Of a stretch of DNA of 38,997 bases, positions 33,493-38,997 are shown piece by piece. The stretch spans positions 1 through 38,997 of the forward strand of contig JAGHTZ010000082.1 of the NCBI GenBank assembly GCA_018065065.1. Reading direction: 5' to 3'. This DNA comes from Candidatus Equadaptatus faecalis. Its GTDB lineage: Bacteria > Synergistota > Synergistia > Synergistales > Synergistaceae. Under the pieces are notes generated by a model that made no database searches, was not told where the DNA came from, and saw nothing but the letters and a program-made list of their open reading frames with translations. Each line of letters opens with the position of its first letter. Within the stretch, counting starts at the first letter, position 1. Position numbers and translations under genes: made by a program.

Positions 33493-34530
33493 TCAGCGGA
33501 CAAGCCGCAAAATGTCAAGTCCCGTTACGTAGATTATGAAAAGAAGCAGCAGCACAAATCCTGCATAGTGCACCGCGCCTTCAAATTTTGCTGAAACCTT
33601 TCTGCCCGTAACAAGCTCCGCAAACGCGAAAACTATTCTGCCGCCGTCAAGCGCAGGGAAAGGCAGAAGATTAACCAGTCCCAAATTGAGATTTATCAGT
33701 CCGAGGAACATAAGGAAGCTCCATAAGCCCTGCTTCGCCGCCTCTCCGGACATAACGGCTATGCCGAGCGGTCCCGAAATTTCCTCCTTGTTTCTTCCAA
33801 TCAGCAGTCTGCCGAGCGAACTGAAAATATCGCTGCTCATACGAAACGCAAAACGCAGCGCTTCGGACATTGACTGAATAAGCGAAAAACGCAGTTTGCG
33901 CGGCTGTATGCCGAGCAGTCTCCCGCCGTGTTCTTTGCTGACAGGAACGCTGGTTTTAATGCAGATCTCTCTGCCGCCGCGCAGATATACAAGCTTAACG
34001 CTGTCGTCAGACACGCTGCGCAGAGTTTTGCTGATGTCTGCCCACTGCTTTATTTCAATATTGTTTATCTTTTTTATAACGTCTCCGCTGCGCAGCCGTA
34101 TTTCAGCCGCCGGAGTGCCTTCCATAACTTTTCCGACCGTTGCCGTTTTCAAATCCCACGTACCGTTCGCAAAGAGATAGCTGCTGAACAAAAGCCATGC
34201 AAGCAGAAGATTTACAGAAATTCCGGCGGCAAGAATAACAAGCCTTTCCCACGGTTTTTTGGCGTAAAGCGCTCTTTCGCGCGGAATTTCAGAATTTTGG
34301 GCTTCGGGGCTTTCATCTTCCCCTTCGAGTTTAACGTAGCCTCCGACAGGGAAAGCACGCAGCGAGTATTTTGTTTCGCCCTTCTGCTTTGAAACAATCA
34401 GAGGACCCATGCCGAAAGAAAATTCGTGTACGTAGACGTTCCGCCACTTTGCGGCAAGGAAATGCCCGCCTTCATGCGATACAACGCATATTCCGATAAC
34501 TACCAGAAATGCCGTAAAGGTAAAGAGCAT
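33493..34530 (-). CDS. rseP: RIP metalloprotease RseP (site-2 protease)
   Basis: An inner-membrane zinc protease of the M50 family. The 345 residues start with a membrane helix holding VVSHEGGHFLAAKW (HEGGH zinc motif, about 18-22), then a PDZ domain (about 125-200), and end with membrane helices holding NLLPFPALDGGRIVFAFAE (LDG motif, Asp as third ligand). It is a single-PDZ form. In relatives it cleaves anti-sigma factors, signal peptide remnants or lipoproteins; the target here cannot be seen. The ATG follows GGAGG by 7 bases and overlaps the dxr stop by one base (TAATG). Confidence 0.95.
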   Translation of the reverse strand: MLFTFTAFLVVIGICVVSHEGGHFLAAKWRNVYVHEFSFGMGPLIVSKQKGETKYSLRAFPVGGYVKLEGEDESPEAQNSEIPRERALYAKKPWERLVILAAGISVNLLLAWLLFSSYLFANGTWDLKTATVGKVMEGTPAAEIRLRSGDVIKKINNIEIKQWADISKTLRSVSDDSVKLVYLRGGREICIKTSVPVSKEHGGRLLGIQPRKLRFSLIQSMSEALRFAFRMSSDIFSSLGRLLIGRNKEEISGPLGIAVMSGEAAKQGLWSFLMFLGLINLNLGLVNLLPFPALDGGRIVFAFAELVTGRKVSAKFEGAVHYAGFVLLLLFIIYVTGLDILRLVR

Positions 34531-35693
34531 TATTCAGACCTCCTGAGGCAGCTTTCCGCCGCGAGCCTTCTGCCTTCGCCGACAAGGGCGACAGCGTCTT
34601 CAAGCGAAGCCGGCGCTGAGCCGCTCCAGTTTGAAAGCACGTCCTCAACAACGCAGGCAATGCCGGTAAAGGATATTTTCCCGTCAAGAAACGCGGAGAC
34701 CGCCGTTTCGTCGGCACCGACAAGCAGCGCGGGATACGCGCCGCCTTTTTTCCCTGCTTCAAGCGCAAGCGGAAAACACGGGAAACGATTTCCGTCTATT
34801 TCGTCAAAACGGAGGTCAAGCCCTGCAGGCTCAAGTGCTTCAATTCCGCGCTCCGCAAGCGGAAGCCTGTCAGGCCACGCGATTGCTGAGGCGGACGGCA
34901 GTCTCATGTCGGCTTTTGAAAGCAGCATTTTTGTCGTTCCGTCAATAAAGCGGACAAGCCCGTGCACGTACGAACCGGGGTGCACGAGAGCGCCGACCTT
35001 TTCCTGTGCCATGCCGAAAAGCTGCGCCGCTTCAATGCACTCAATACCTTTGTTCATAAGGGTTGCGCTGTCTATCGTTATCTTTGCGCCCATATTCCAC
35101 GTAGGGTGTTTCAGCGCGTCGGAAGGAGTTACCTTTTCCATCTGTTCAGCCGTAAAGCTTCTGAACGGGCCTCCTGAAGCGGTAAGCCAGAGCTTGTCAA
35201 CCTCTTCCGAAGGTGCACCCTCCATACACTGCCATACGGCGCTGTGTTCGCTGTCAACGGGACGCAGCTGGTTTTTATACTGAACGAGCGGCATAACCCA
35301 CGGACCTGCCACCACAATACTTTCCTTATTTGCGAGAGAAACTTTTTTGCCCGTTTTAAGAGCGCACTGCAAAGCAGGGATCGCCGCCGTTCCTGAAGAC
35401 GCGAATACGACCTGGTCAATCTCCGGAGAACAGGCGATTTCAGACAACCCCTCAACTCCTGAAAGGCAGGTGAAATCATTATCTGAAAACGGCGCTTCAG
35501 GATTGCTGAGGCAGAGGATTTTTGAAGAAAAAGAACGTCCGAGCTCTTTCAGTTTCTTTTCGTTTGAATTTGCGGCAAGGGCAGCCACCCTGAAACGCTC
35601 AGGAAAACGCGAGCAGACGCCAAGCACGGAACTGCCTACGCTTCCCGTTGCGCCTATAACCGCTATGTTTTGTATTTCGCTGCGTTCTGTCAT
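34530..35693 (-). CDS. dxr: 1-deoxy-D-xylulose 5-phosphate reductoisomerase
   Basis: The first committed enzyme of the MEP pathway, an NADPH-dependent reductoisomerase. The 387 residues start with IAVIGATGSVGSSVLGV (Rossmann, about 11-27), then LANKESIVVAGP, SEHSAVWQCMEG and the metal/substrate site with TASGGPFR and SATLMNKGIECIEA (about 230). The ATG overlaps the stop of the preceding 37-aa frame (ATGA), so translation may be coupled. Usual neighbours cdsA and uppS are absent; the unit starts at a promoter near 35840. Confidence 0.97.
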   Translation of the reverse strand: MTERSEIQNIAVIGATGSVGSSVLGVCSRFPERFRVAALAANSNEKKLKELGRSFSSKILCLSNPEAPFSDNDFTCLSGVEGLSEIACSPEIDQVVFASSGTAAIPALQCALKTGKKVSLANKESIVVAGPWVMPLVQYKNQLRPVDSEHSAVWQCMEGAPSEEVDKLWLTASGGPFRSFTAEQMEKVTPSDALKHPTWNMGAKITIDSATLMNKGIECIEAAQLFGMAQEKVGALVHPGSYVHGLVRFIDGTTKMLLSKADMRLPSASAIAWPDRLPLAERGIEALEPAGLDLRFDEIDGNRFPCFPLALEAGKKGGAYPALLVGADETAVSAFLDGKISFTGIACVVEDVLSNWSGSAPASLEDAVALVGEGRRLAAESCLRRSE

Positions 35694-35803
35694 TTTACAA
35701 AAAGTCCGAAAATTATATAGGCGATAACAGCGTTCACAAGCATAGCGCCGTGCCGGCGGACACTACCGTCAGAAGCCTTAAAATCCCGAAAAGAAACTGC
35801 CAT
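35690..35803 (-). CDS. Small membrane protein coupled to dxr (37 aa)
   Basis: From the ATG at 35803 the frame reads MAVSFRDFKASDGSVRRHGA, then a hydrophobic helix (MLVNAVIAYIIFGLFVK) and stops at 35690, overlapping the dxr ATG (ATGA). A basic N-terminal part and one membrane helix are clear. A GGGCGG element 7 bases ahead is only a weak ribosome site, but the 17-base-spaced promoter at 35840-35868 gives a leader of about 30 bases, which suits this start. The overlap with dxr argues for real translation. No family is recognised. Confidence 0.55.
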   Translation of the reverse strand: MAVSFRDFKASDGSVRRHGAMLVNAVIAYIIFGLFVK

Positions 35804-35839
35804 TGCATTACCGCCCTTCGTTCCTGTCTCCGCCTGTAT

Positions 35840-35868
35840 ATGATAACTCTCAAAACGCGATATGTCTA
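35840..35868 (-). promoter_or_regulatory. Promoter of the dxr-rseP-ispG-argF operon
   Basis: TAGACA, 17 bases, TATCAT on the minus strand: one mismatch in each hexamer and ideal spacing. It lies behind the adhesin terminator (35890-35921) and just ahead of the 37-aa frame. Confidence 0.7.
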
Positions 35869-35889
35869 ACACTTTCGGCAAAACGTCCA

Positions 35890-35921
35890 AAACAAAACGG
35901 CGCAGAACGAAACCGCGCCGT
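35890..35921 (-). terminator. Rho-independent terminator after the adhesin gene
   Basis: Minus-strand stem ACGGCGC/GCGCCGT (7 perfect pairs, 11-base loop) followed by TTTGTTTTGG. It starts 33 bases after the stop of the trimeric autotransporter and precedes the dxr promoter. Confidence 0.75.
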
Positions 35922-35953
35922 CTGTTGTTTGATATTTAAGTCTGCCGCTCAGG

Positions 35954-37348
35954 CTATTTTTTAATCAGCTTTTTAAGCTCCTCAAGCTCATTCTTAAGCG
36001 TCTGAATTTCCGTACCCTGTTGCGCGACCGTACTTTCAAGCACGCTGTTTTTATCGTTAAGATACTTCACCTGTTTCTGAAGCTCCGCCTTTGTCTTTGC
36101 CGTTTCGCCCTTGCCGAATTTCAGGCTGAATCCGACGTTGTACGCGTTCTGGCTGTCGTTTCCGTTGCTGATTGACGTTGACGCCGAGAGCATCATATTC
36201 GGGCTCGGTTTGTAGGCAAGTCCTATCGCTTCCGCGTTTGAACCTCTGTAACCGCCGTACGCAACCGCGCCGACAAGCTTGTCGCCTGCTTCGCCGCTCG
36301 GTTCAGCAAAGTGCAGTCCGGCCAATGCCGCTGATATTGCGCCAACTTCGCGGATTTCCTGCGTGTTGGCGTTAATTTCGTTCTGCAAATGTCTTTCAAC
36401 AGCCTGAGCTCTCATCGATTCAGCCGCTATCGCCTGATTTGTCTTATATAGCTGTCCCGTTGTCGCCGCGGAGGTTCCGCCTTCGGCAAGTTCAGCCGCT
36501 TTCACATTGCTGATTGTCGTTCCGTTGCTGCCCAAAAGTTCAATTTTCGACTTGTCCGCATTATAGTGTACGGCATTTGCGTCTTCTCCGCCGCCGCCGC
36601 TCGGAAGATTGCTGATTATGTCAAATATCTGTCCGCCGTTGACCGCGTCTGTTGAGCCGCTTTCTATCGCGCCGTTGGCAACGTTGACTATCTGTTTCAG
36701 ATGTCCTTCGTCTCCAACTGATACTACACCTTCGGCTGCGCTTCCGCCCGTGAAATTGTAGGTTTTCGTTCCGATTGTCGCGCTTGATATATTTGCCGCG
36801 TCTTTTGTTACAGCGTTATTGCCGAGCGCGACTGAATTTGCGTGTGTTGCCTGCGCGCCGCTGCCGAACGCAATTGTTCCGGCGTAGTCGGCTGCCTGAC
36901 CTTCAACACCCGCAACCGCGCCTTTACCGAACGCGAACGAGTAGTCGCCGTATGCCTTGCTCTGGGCGCCTCCCGCGAAGGAAGCCGTTCCGCCGGCGTT
37001 TGTTTGAGTGCCTATCGCTACAGAAGCCATTCCGACGGCGTTCGTATTCCAGCCAATCGCCACGGCGTAGTTTCTGTGTGCTTGAGCTCCGCTACCCATC
37101 GCTACGGAATAGTTGCCGCTGGCATTCGTCTGGTAACCCATCGCCGTGGAATAATTTCCGCCGGCATTCGTGTCTTTGCCCATCGCTGTGGAATAATCTC
37201 CGCTGGCATTGTTATTTCCGATTGCTACAGCGCCAATGCCGCTCGCATTTGCGCCTGTTCCGAGCGCAAGCGCGTTTTCCGCCGTTGCCCGTGCATCGTT
37301 GCCGAATACTGCCGAGTTCTTGCCTGAGGCAAGCGTGCCTTCAGACAA
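35954..37348 (-). CDS. Trimeric autotransporter, C-terminal part (head, neck, stalk, anchor)
   Basis: A 464-residue frame that is the in-frame continuation of the upstream adhesin part; no signal peptide, and the start shown (TTG) lacks a ribosome site. The frame is open back to 37414. It holds ten YadA-like 14-residue head repeats (about 6-143), a GTIAFGSGAQATHANSVALG block, a neck VANGAIESGSTDAVNGGQIF (about 223-242), a short stalk with a second TGQLYKTNQ motif near 297-305, and the YadA membrane anchor (about 330-411, VGAISAALAGL...YNVGFSLKFG). After the last strand comes a 50-residue coiled coil (413-464, Glu/Lys-rich). If translated by readthrough it should form a trimer on the cell surface that binds other cells or matrix. 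Confidence 0.8.
   Translation of the reverse strand: MSEGTLASGKNSAVFGNDARATAENALALGTGANASGIGAVAIGNNNASGDYSTAMGKDTNAGGNYSTAMGYQTNASGNYSVAMGSGAQAHRNYAVAIGWNTNAVGMASVAIGTQTNAGGTASFAGGAQSKAYGDYSFAFGKGAVAGVEGQAADYAGTIAFGSGAQATHANSVALGNNAVTKDAANISSATIGTKTYNFTGGSAAEGVVSVGDEGHLKQIVNVANGAIESGSTDAVNGGQIFDIISNLPSGGGGEDANAVHYNADKSKIELLGSNGTTISNVKAAELAEGGTSAATTGQLYKTNQAIAAESMRAQAVERHLQNEINANTQEIREVGAISAALAGLHFAEPSGEAGDKLVGAVAYGGYRGSNAEAIGLAYKPSPNMMLSASTSISNGNDSQNAYNVGFSLKFGKGETAKTKAELQKQVKYLNDKNSVLESTVAQQGTEIQTLKNELEELKKLIKK
36920..37333 (-). repeat. Tandem 42-base repeats of the adhesin head, second block
   Basis: Ten imperfect copies of a 42-base unit encode 14-residue YadA head repeats with the core SVAMG / STAMG / AVAIG. 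Copies NASGDYSTAMGKDT, NAGGNYSTAMGYQT and NASGNYSVAMGSGA are closest to each other, a sign of recent duplication or conversion. Confidence 0.75.
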
Positions 37349-37414
37349 CGAAGTACCTATAGCTATTGCGTTTTCGCCGCTTGCAGTTACACCGGGCGCA
37401 TACGGCTTCGCATA

Positions 37415-37417
37415 TCA
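37415..37417 (-). other. In-frame TGA inside the adhesin reading frame
   Basis: Reading GAC TGA TAT on the minus strand, this stop divides one 780-codon frame (38293 to 35954). Both sides read as adhesin coding sequence in the same frame. One base change from TGG (Trp) would create it. Elsewhere in the window TGA acts as an ordinary stop (for example recR and spoIID), so the code is not altered. Confidence 0.85.
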
Positions 37418-38293
37418 GTCAAATATATTATCCTCAGTAATAACCCCAAGACTTGCCATAGCTGCAACAATTTCTTCAGCAGGTTTGTTTTTCCATTCGT
37501 TTACATCCAAAGCCCAGCTTGGATCAAACAGCCAACTAAAATTACTCCACTCTGTCGCGTAAGTGACAGGGTCATTGATAACTTTCTTTATAAACTCGCA
37601 ATAATATGATTTTGATCTAGACCCTAACGCGATAGTGTTGTCTCCGCCGTAAACAGGCGTGCCGCTGCTGTCGTCCATAGTACCCGCGACTGCGCCGTCA
37701 CCGAACGCAAAGGAATTTGCGCCGTACGCTGTACTGCTGCTGCCCCCTGCAAAGGAATTTGCACCGTATGCTGCGCTGTTGCTGCCCCCTGCAAAGGAAC
37801 TTTTGCCGTTTGCAGTCGTATTAAAGCCCATCGCTGTGGAATTTTCGCCTTCCGCTCTCGTAGTATTGCCCAACGCTGTGGAATAGTCGCCTTCCGCTCT
37901 CGTCCATAAACCCGTTGCTGTGGAAGCACGTCCGCTTGCGGTCGTCATGTAGCCCATCGCCGTGGAAGCCTCATTGGTTGCACATGTAGTGTAGCCCATC
38001 GCTACAGAATAGTTCCCGCTTGCGCTCGTCATGTAGCCCATCGCCGTGGAATCATGTCCGATGGCGTTCGTGTTCTGACCCATCGCAACAGAATAGTTGC
38101 CGATTGCGGTCGTTTGGTAGCCCATTGCCGTGGAATATTCTCCGCTTGCGGTGTTGTCGCTGCCGTTGTCAACGTAAATACCACCCGTTCCGGCACCTGA
38201 ATCGCTCCAAGACGTCGCCATTGCCGGCGATACCGCAGCAAAGATGAATGACAGGAGCATGAATAGTGCTGCTAACTTCTTGAAACTTCTCAT
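37415..38293 (-). CDS. Trimeric autotransporter, N-terminal part (signal peptide and head)
   Basis: A 292-residue frame whose ATG at 38293 has AGGAAG about 10 bases ahead. It starts with a Sec signal peptide (1-26, cut near AMA-TS), then eleven 14-residue YadA head repeats (48-201: TASGEYSTAMGYQT, TAIGNYSVAMGQNT and so on), and a GGDNTIALGSRSK motif. From about 228 comes an unusual non-repeat insert with four Trp (WLFDPSW, VNEWKNKPAEE), ending at TGA. It has no neck, stalk or membrane anchor, so alone it would be a loose secreted head. It lies under a good promoter with operator-like repeats. Confidence 0.85.
   Translation of the reverse strand: MRSFKKLAALFMLLSFIFAAVSPAMATSWSDSGAGTGGIYVDNGSDNTASGEYSTAMGYQTTAIGNYSVAMGQNTNAIGHDSTAMGYMTSASGNYSVAMGYTTCATNEASTAMGYMTTASGRASTATGLWTRAEGDYSTALGNTTRAEGENSTAMGFNTTANGKSSFAGGSNSAAYGANSFAGGSSSTAYGANSFAFGDGAVAGTMDDSSGTPVYGGDNTIALGSRSKSYYCEFIKKVINDPVTYATEWSNFSWLFDPSWALDVNEWKNKPAEEIVAAMASLGVITEDNIFD
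37691..38152 (-). repeat. Tandem 42-base repeats of the adhesin head, first block
   Basis: Eleven imperfect copies of a 42-base unit (154 codons) encode the first head block. On the plus strand the units read with GCCCATNGC and GGAATA/GGAACA words. The copies TAYGANS and AAYGANS with FAGGS, near 37710-37800, are nearly identical at the DNA level. Confidence 0.8.
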
Positions 38294-38321
38294 GTTGTTT
38301 TTCTTCCTTTCAAAATAAATT

Positions 38322-38440
38322 TTGCACAACTGAAATCTGATTTATGACGATAAAAACTCTCGCCGCAGCGTGACACACAAACCCGACGGAATACGTTCCG
38401 CCGCTTTGTTTATTTTACGGCGGCATTGACTGTTGTGCAA
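38322..38440. repeat. Nine-base inverted repeats around the adhesin leader
   Basis: TTGCACAAC (plus, 38322-38330, next to the ribosome site) and its complement GTTGTGCAA (38432-38440, holding the -35 box) face each other across about 100 bases of leader and promoter. The pair might bind a regulator, or be the ends of an invertible segment; nine bases could also be chance. Confidence 0.4.
38412..38440 (-). promoter_or_regulatory. Promoter of the adhesin gene
   Basis: TTGCAC, 17 bases, TAAAAT on the minus strand. It leaves a leader of about 110 bases before the ATG at 38293. The leader contains a GGAACG-TATTCC palindrome that could fold. Confidence 0.75.
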
Positions 38441-38453
38441 GTATTGATTTTCA

Positions 38454-38487
38454 AAATTTCGTCATGTGTCCCTCCAAATTTCGTCAT
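38454..38487. promoter_or_regulatory. Operator-like direct repeats upstream of the adhesin promoter
   Basis: AAATTTCGTCAT occurs twice (38454-38465 and 38476-38487), exactly 22 bases apart, two helical turns. The sites lie just upstream of the -35 box (centres about 20 and 42 bases from it). A third partial copy AAATTTCG is at 38511. This is the layout expected for an activator or response-regulator site. Confidence 0.5.
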
Positions 38488-38490
38488 ACC

Positions 38491-38534
38491 CCTCTATTTA
38501 AATATCTTGAAAATTTCGCTTTTTTTGGAAACTC
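38491..38534 (+). repeat. Dispersed repeat, copy A (inverted relative to copy B)
   Basis: CCTCTATTTAAATATCTTGA followed by AAA...GGAAAC on the plus strand. The same block, differing by one base in the first 23, occurs on the minus strand at 38751-38792 (copy B). The two face each other across about 220 bases. Confidence 0.55.
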
Positions 38535-38557
38535 AGCCGTTTTTGAAACACAATAAA

Positions 38558-38603
38558 AATACAGCTGCCATGCGGTTTCGCATTGACAGCTGTTTCCATT
38601 TTT
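38558..38603 (+). repeat. Repeat unit R1 with a strong hairpin
   Basis: A 46-base unit that begins AATACAG and ends TGTTTCCATTTTT. Inside, ACAGCTG...CAGCTGT plus ATGCG...CGCAT form a 14-bp stem with one mismatch and a GTTT loop (38561-38593). Unit R2 at 38717-38762 has the same frame of fixed and variable blocks. T-rich runs on either strand make it a possible two-way terminator. Confidence 0.6.
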
Positions 38604-38716
38604 ACAAATTTTTTGCAGAGCGTTTTTCAGGGGTGTCAGTCTTGGGGTAATTTGTATAACGTCAGGACAGGCAGGTTAAAAATTGTGTTTTTGACCGTTT
38701 TTTGAGACGAGGTTCA

Positions 38717-38764
38717 AATACAGACGCCGCAAGGCTTCGCAAGGACAGGTGTTTCCATTTTTTT
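38717..38764 (+). repeat. Repeat unit R2
   Basis: A 46-base unit matching R1 (38558-38603), 159 bases apart in the same direction. Fixed blocks AATACAG, GCC, TTCGCA, GACAG and TGTTTCCATTTTT are shared; four blocks differ. The long stem of R1 is not kept; R2 instead has GCC-GCAA-GGC. Confidence 0.6.
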
Positions 38765-38793
38765 GTCTTTTTTCAAGATATTTATATAGAGGG
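38751..38793 (-). repeat. Dispersed repeat, copy B
   Basis: Minus-strand CCCTCTATATAAATATCTTG followed by AAAAAA...GGAAAC. It is the inverted partner of copy A (38491-38534) and overlaps the end of unit R2. Confidence 0.55.
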
Positions 38794-38997
38794 TGCTGAC
38801 GATTTTTCGTCGGGCATGGCTTTTCTGAAACAGTTGTATGACCTGCCGAGGTCTGCATTTGCGGCTGTTTCTCGGCAGAGAGGCTGTGCCTTGTATATCT
38901 CTCACGCATTACGTGATGCGGCTCCAAACGGAGGTAAGCCCGTTGCTTTTCAGCTAAAGCTCTGCAACACTTCGGTAACGGCACGCTTAGCGGTCGG

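Follow-up and report, generated by a model that had tools for sequence, protein, structure and literature searches.

The window, that is, the whole 38,997-nucleotide stretch of DNA analysed here, comes from a Synergistaceae genome and carries a trimeric autotransporter adhesin gene that is divided by a single premature in-frame TGA. Probably, one of several redundant adhesins has recently lost its function here through a nonsense mutation, whether the resulting allele is fixed or still segregating. The reading, drawn from sequence, becomes if anything slightly more probable if it is taken to include arrival of the stop together with an adjoining insert. The lone TGA would switch off the adhesin gene and leave two open pieces that mimic two genes. 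A recent nonsense mutation had been one of three options raised by the first-pass annotation, next to a mixed population and readthrough, and it is the best supported of them, given the intact closest paralogue and a second adhesin cut in the same genome.

A lone TGA divides one adhesin frame

Translation of 38293..35954 on the minus strand yields 780 codons with stops solely at codon 293 (TGA, 37417-37415) and at the end (TAG, 35956-35954), and each of the five remaining frames contains 18-37 stops over the same stretch. Together with the Pfam domain content, this confirms the initial proposal of one trimeric autotransporter adhesin frame cut by a lone in-frame TGA. The N-terminus of ORF1, MRSFKKLAALFMLLSFIFAAVSPAMA, is signal-peptide-like as judged by eye and of the same type as in the intact adhesin paralogues of this genome. 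YadA heads (PF05658) are matched in ORF1 and ORF2, the stalk/neck (PF05662) and the anchor (PF03895, above cut-off) in ORF2 only. The domain split first described, with signal peptide and heads in ORF1 and stalk and anchor in ORF2, stands in these parts but has to be amended, as many heads are found in ORF2 too: the second frame opens with more head repeats, so the cut falls within the YadA head and not at the head/neck border. Signal-like N-terminus and anchor are located on separate chains with the TGA between them, and the gene as it stands does not encode the single polypeptide of type Vc. The coordinates of all features are given in Table 1.

Table 1. Features of the interrupted adhesin gene and its surroundings, in window coordinates
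Feature	Position	Strand	Basis
AAAGGA, ribosome-binding-site-like, 11 nt upstream of ATG	38305..38310	-	sequence
ORF1, 292 aa: signal-peptide-like N-terminus, six YadA head stretches, non-repeat insert	37418..38293	-	translation, Pfam
Low-GC non-repeat head insert	37418..37618	-	composition, genome search
TGA, codon 293, next base T, at or adjoining the 3' edge of the insert	37415..37417	-	sequence
ORF2, 486 codons + TAG: YadA heads, stalk, anchor, coiled-coil-like tail	35954..37414	-	translation, Pfam
YadA stalk/neck, PF05662	36569..36694	-	Pfam
YadA membrane anchor, PF03895	36122..36286	-	Pfam
Coiled-coil-like C-terminal extension past the anchor, ~50 aa	35963..36109	-	sequence; sub-threshold coiled-coil-type Pfam matches
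dxr, intact housekeeping gene downstream	34530..35693	-	local context
Dispersed repeat copy at contig end	38721..38997	.	genome search

ORF2 lacks both a signal peptide and a recognisable ribosome-binding site; its first ATG lies 77 codons past the TGA, and a TTG is found 22 codons past it. The earlier statement that neither half works alone fits the domain content, and the part concerning ORF2 agrees, at the level of sequence, with its missing signal peptide and the distance to its first ATG. The predicted fate of ORF1 is export into the periplasm, where an unanchored head would presumably be broken down; ORF2, with no signal peptide and no plausible start, would probably not be made. With the signal for export on one half and the anchor on the other, we infer that the adhesin product is lost.

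Repeat-length phase variation had already been discounted as the cause, and we reject it as well: the stop lies in-frame in non-repeat sequence, outside any simple or tandem repeat, and the frame is not shifted. Elsewhere, the window holds ordinary housekeeping DNA whose genes are intact, including dxr, rseP, ispG (GcpE), and ruvABC as well as the genes for an ornithine/aspartate carbamoyltransferase and an IMP dehydrogenase.

An intact paralogue and a second interrupted adhesin

The assembly comprises 1.6 Mb in 100 contigs, with the window as contig C82, and encodes 10 YadA anchors. The closest paralogue, on contig C50, is one uninterrupted frame of 803 aa with the same order of signal peptide, head, insert position, stalk, anchor, and tail; relative to this intact homologue of matching architecture, the frame of the window gene is disrupted. 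An adhesin gene on contig C79 (L031:957-4565) is cut in the same manner. Its first 267 codons encode a signal peptide and a DUF6273 domain, at the end of which an in-frame TAA stop codon (1758-1760) is located, and the following 935 codons reach a YadA anchor and a SPOR domain. Across the motif at which the C79 gene stops, the frame stays open in three paralogues (C96, C88, C11) and in one gene of the same-genus sister genome G001. Further, a third adhesin gene is divided between contigs C46 (L033) and C74 (L030), whose starts overlap by 159 bp inside the adhesin head with 3 mismatches, one of which forms a stop in the adhesin frame, in C46 only; this disagreement reflects either strain variation or assembly error.

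To gauge the base rate of split genes, 512 kb of the assembly, ~30 kb of it adhesin genes, were scanned for same-frame neighbours of which the second has no early ATG. No split gene besides the window gene and C79 was found in these 512 kb. Six further flags looked by eye like normal adjacent genes that begin at GTG, TTG, or a late start codon, or like a spurious frame. Both genes cut by a single stop in the scanned sequence are trimeric autotransporter adhesins. As the analysis set out from the window gene, C79 is the sole independent case, and an enrichment of nonsense lesions in adhesins is suggestive, not proven. Such a concentration would be consistent with selection that is relaxed, or that fluctuates, on proteins involved in surface contact. 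In practical terms, automatic annotation would report four “adhesin” genes in place of two broken ones.

A SPOR domain following the YadA anchor and a coiled-coil-like stretch was observed at L025:4585-8292, L027:3033-5492, L031:1761-4565, and L036:3-2753. Judged by this domain order, these adhesins probably possess a built-in peptidoglycan tether. Our literature search found no description of a trimeric autotransporter adhesin with a SPOR domain; C-terminal periplasmic extensions of trimeric autotransporter adhesins have already been reported as widespread (PMC13082670).

Age and genomic setting of the lesion

The lesion is read as recent because the gene has acquired neither a further stop nor a frameshift. 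As a rough bound, the lack of further lesions limits neutral divergence to about 1-2% if indels are included and to up to 5% for nonsense changes alone; the same lack is equally expected from a sequencing or assembly error or from readthrough. A point change may have produced the stop, or it may have come along with the adjoining low-GC insert; in the population sampled, the allele would be either fixed or segregating. Its loss appears to be tolerated, since the genome holds about ten related adhesins, of which at least one other (C79) is cut likewise.

Searches with ORF2 against a collection of genome contigs and with ORF1 against viral contigs recovered paralogues or distant adhesins only. 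In the related genomes G001, G002, G004, and G008, a cdsA-like gene is located upstream of dxr and followed by uppS-like genes (names assigned by eye), and none of the four has an adhesin gene upstream of dxr. Because the cdsA-like gene occupies this site in four relatives, there is no syntenic orthologue of the window gene, and with no orthologue found, its age and ancestral state rest on the paralogues. To judge from gene order, the adhesin site upstream of dxr (window 35694-38997) arose in this lineage through insertion or rearrangement.

Assembly error as an alternative origin of the stop

If the consensus were wrong, through an error of assembly or by blending co-existing strains into a chimera, the stop would be absent from real cells or from most of them. 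We consider this unlikely for the window gene, despite a source that invites it: the 100-contig draft assembly is probably a MAG, as is the sister genome, the conflict between C46 and C74 concerns a stop in yet another adhesin gene, and dispersed repeats lie at many contig ends, that of the window contig included. Against it, the TGA is embedded in single-copy sequence, and at 1.6 kb from the end of the contig a wrong join through repeats is unlikely. Moreover, the stop region of C79 is only ~72% identical to the nearest paralogue found, and paralogue collapse therefore does not account for that stop. Finally, the ~480 kb of other sequence contain no split gene, which argues that random consensus errors creating stops are rare in this assembly.

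The dispersed repeat itself is ~340 bp long, apparently non-coding, and present in ~20 places, many of them at contig ends, with 77-99% identity (window 38721-38997; L107-L111). It has no Rfam match, and its plus strand folds better than shuffles (z = -2.4). The repeat may explain the contig breaks.

A low-GC insert ends at or near the stop

The non-repeat insert of the ORF1 head has a GC content of about 0.37-0.40 and a GC3 of about 0.32 in a gene of 53% GC overall, and it ends at or very near the TGA. Stated in codons, GC amounts to 37% over the 68 codons preceding the TGA versus 62% over the 8 codons following it. This coincidence of GC step and stop is what speaks for a recombination event that put a low-GC segment, ending in or creating the stop, into an intact head. 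Such an event, which overlaps with the nonsense-allele reading, has a rather small probability in our assessment, as the heads of intact paralogues carry inserts of the same kind: those of C50 (48% GC) and C64 (42% GC) are in-frame, and low-GC inserts are accordingly normal, stop-free parts of the head. In C50, the insert even precedes the same TASGENAIA head repeat directly. In addition, neither a donor nor an empty site was found in the genome and in 183 genomes of the order. The window insert is single-copy in the genome, shows no homology above shuffles to the inserts of the paralogues, and has no counterpart in the same-genus sister genome G001 or among the 183 genomes of the order.

Redundant adhesins might also be kept as on/off alleles by means of segregating nonsense codons, with different genes off in different cells. 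Two clean nonsense-cut genes and one stop conflict at contig ends, all of them in adhesins, are compatible with this proposal, which we regard as speculative and hold to be rather improbable. Equally tentative is its second part, in which a gene would return to the on state by reversion or by recombination among the roughly ten paralogues, a contingency system in which stop codons take the role of repeat slippage.

Recoding of the stop codon as an improbable reading

Programmed or tolerated readthrough, which would supply a low level of full-length adhesin, was another of the options initially raised and would be in keeping with two sides that are still open and domains that are intact. The tests of this option speak against it. 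TGA terminates 7 of the 36 window ORFs examined and is an ordinary stop here. Among 45 tRNA genes, detected with the Rfam model and assigned anticodons by ARAGORN, Trp is represented by CCA only, and none has a UCA anticodon or otherwise reads TGA. SelA, SelB, and tRNA-Sec gave no hit over cut-off in this genome; all three are present in the sister genome G001. The RNA around the TGA folds no better than shuffles (z = +0.85), forms no SECIS-like hairpin, and has no Rfam match. The base that follows the TGA is a T, and UGA followed by T is generally not a leaky context in E. coli. Readthrough is further disfavoured by the sibling adhesin on C79, which is cut by a different stop codon, TAA. With no selenocysteine system, no suppressor tRNA, a TGA in normal use, and no RNA structure, we consider readthrough very improbable.

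Two specific forms of recoding were rejected. A selenoprotein, in which UGA is read as selenocysteine, is contradicted by the missing selA, selB, and tRNA-Sec and by the lack of a SECIS-like structure, and an alternative code with UGA as Trp or Gly by the use of TGA as stop and the absence of a UCA-anticodon tRNA. As a side observation, selA, tRNA-Sec, and selB are clustered at G001:C99:6170-9392, and all are missing in this genome and in G002; by gene content, selenocysteine coding has apparently been lost within the family.

A reading as two genes, with ORF1 as a secreted soluble head and ORF2 as a second protein translated from its own start, for which the TTG 22 codons past the stop is a candidate, is hardly credible given the lack of a signal peptide, a near ATG, and a recognisable ribosome-binding site in ORF2 and the single chain of the intact paralogue C50.

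Comparison with known systems

The window gene shares its signal-peptide-like N-terminus, repeated YadA heads, stalk, and YadA anchor with type Vc adhesins of the YadA/BadA kind, from which it differs by the interrupting stop and by the short coiled-coil-like extension past the anchor. Systems of stop-codon recoding likewise have one in-frame UGA in an open frame, but their machinery and signals were not found here. Our literature search found no study of such adhesin genes in this group.

Broken copies of surface adhesins are common. Reading the window gene as a nonsense allele places it beside several lesions described in other bacteria. In Bartonella henselae strains, badA is disrupted by premature stops (PMC8859334), Mannheimia haemolytica has trimeric autotransporter isoforms with premature stops (PMC7424683), and in Brucella a trimeric autotransporter locus has been reduced through deletions and frameshifts (PMC7688925). 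As in badA and in adhesin G of M. haemolytica, a premature-stop lesion affects one family member. In contrast to these genes, whose alleles have been followed across strains, the window gene is known from one assembly and no orthologue of it was found; moreover, the badA lesions are frameshifts, whereas the window gene carries an in-frame stop codon. The window gene is thus a further case of an adhesin pseudogene or off-allele and not a new kind of system.
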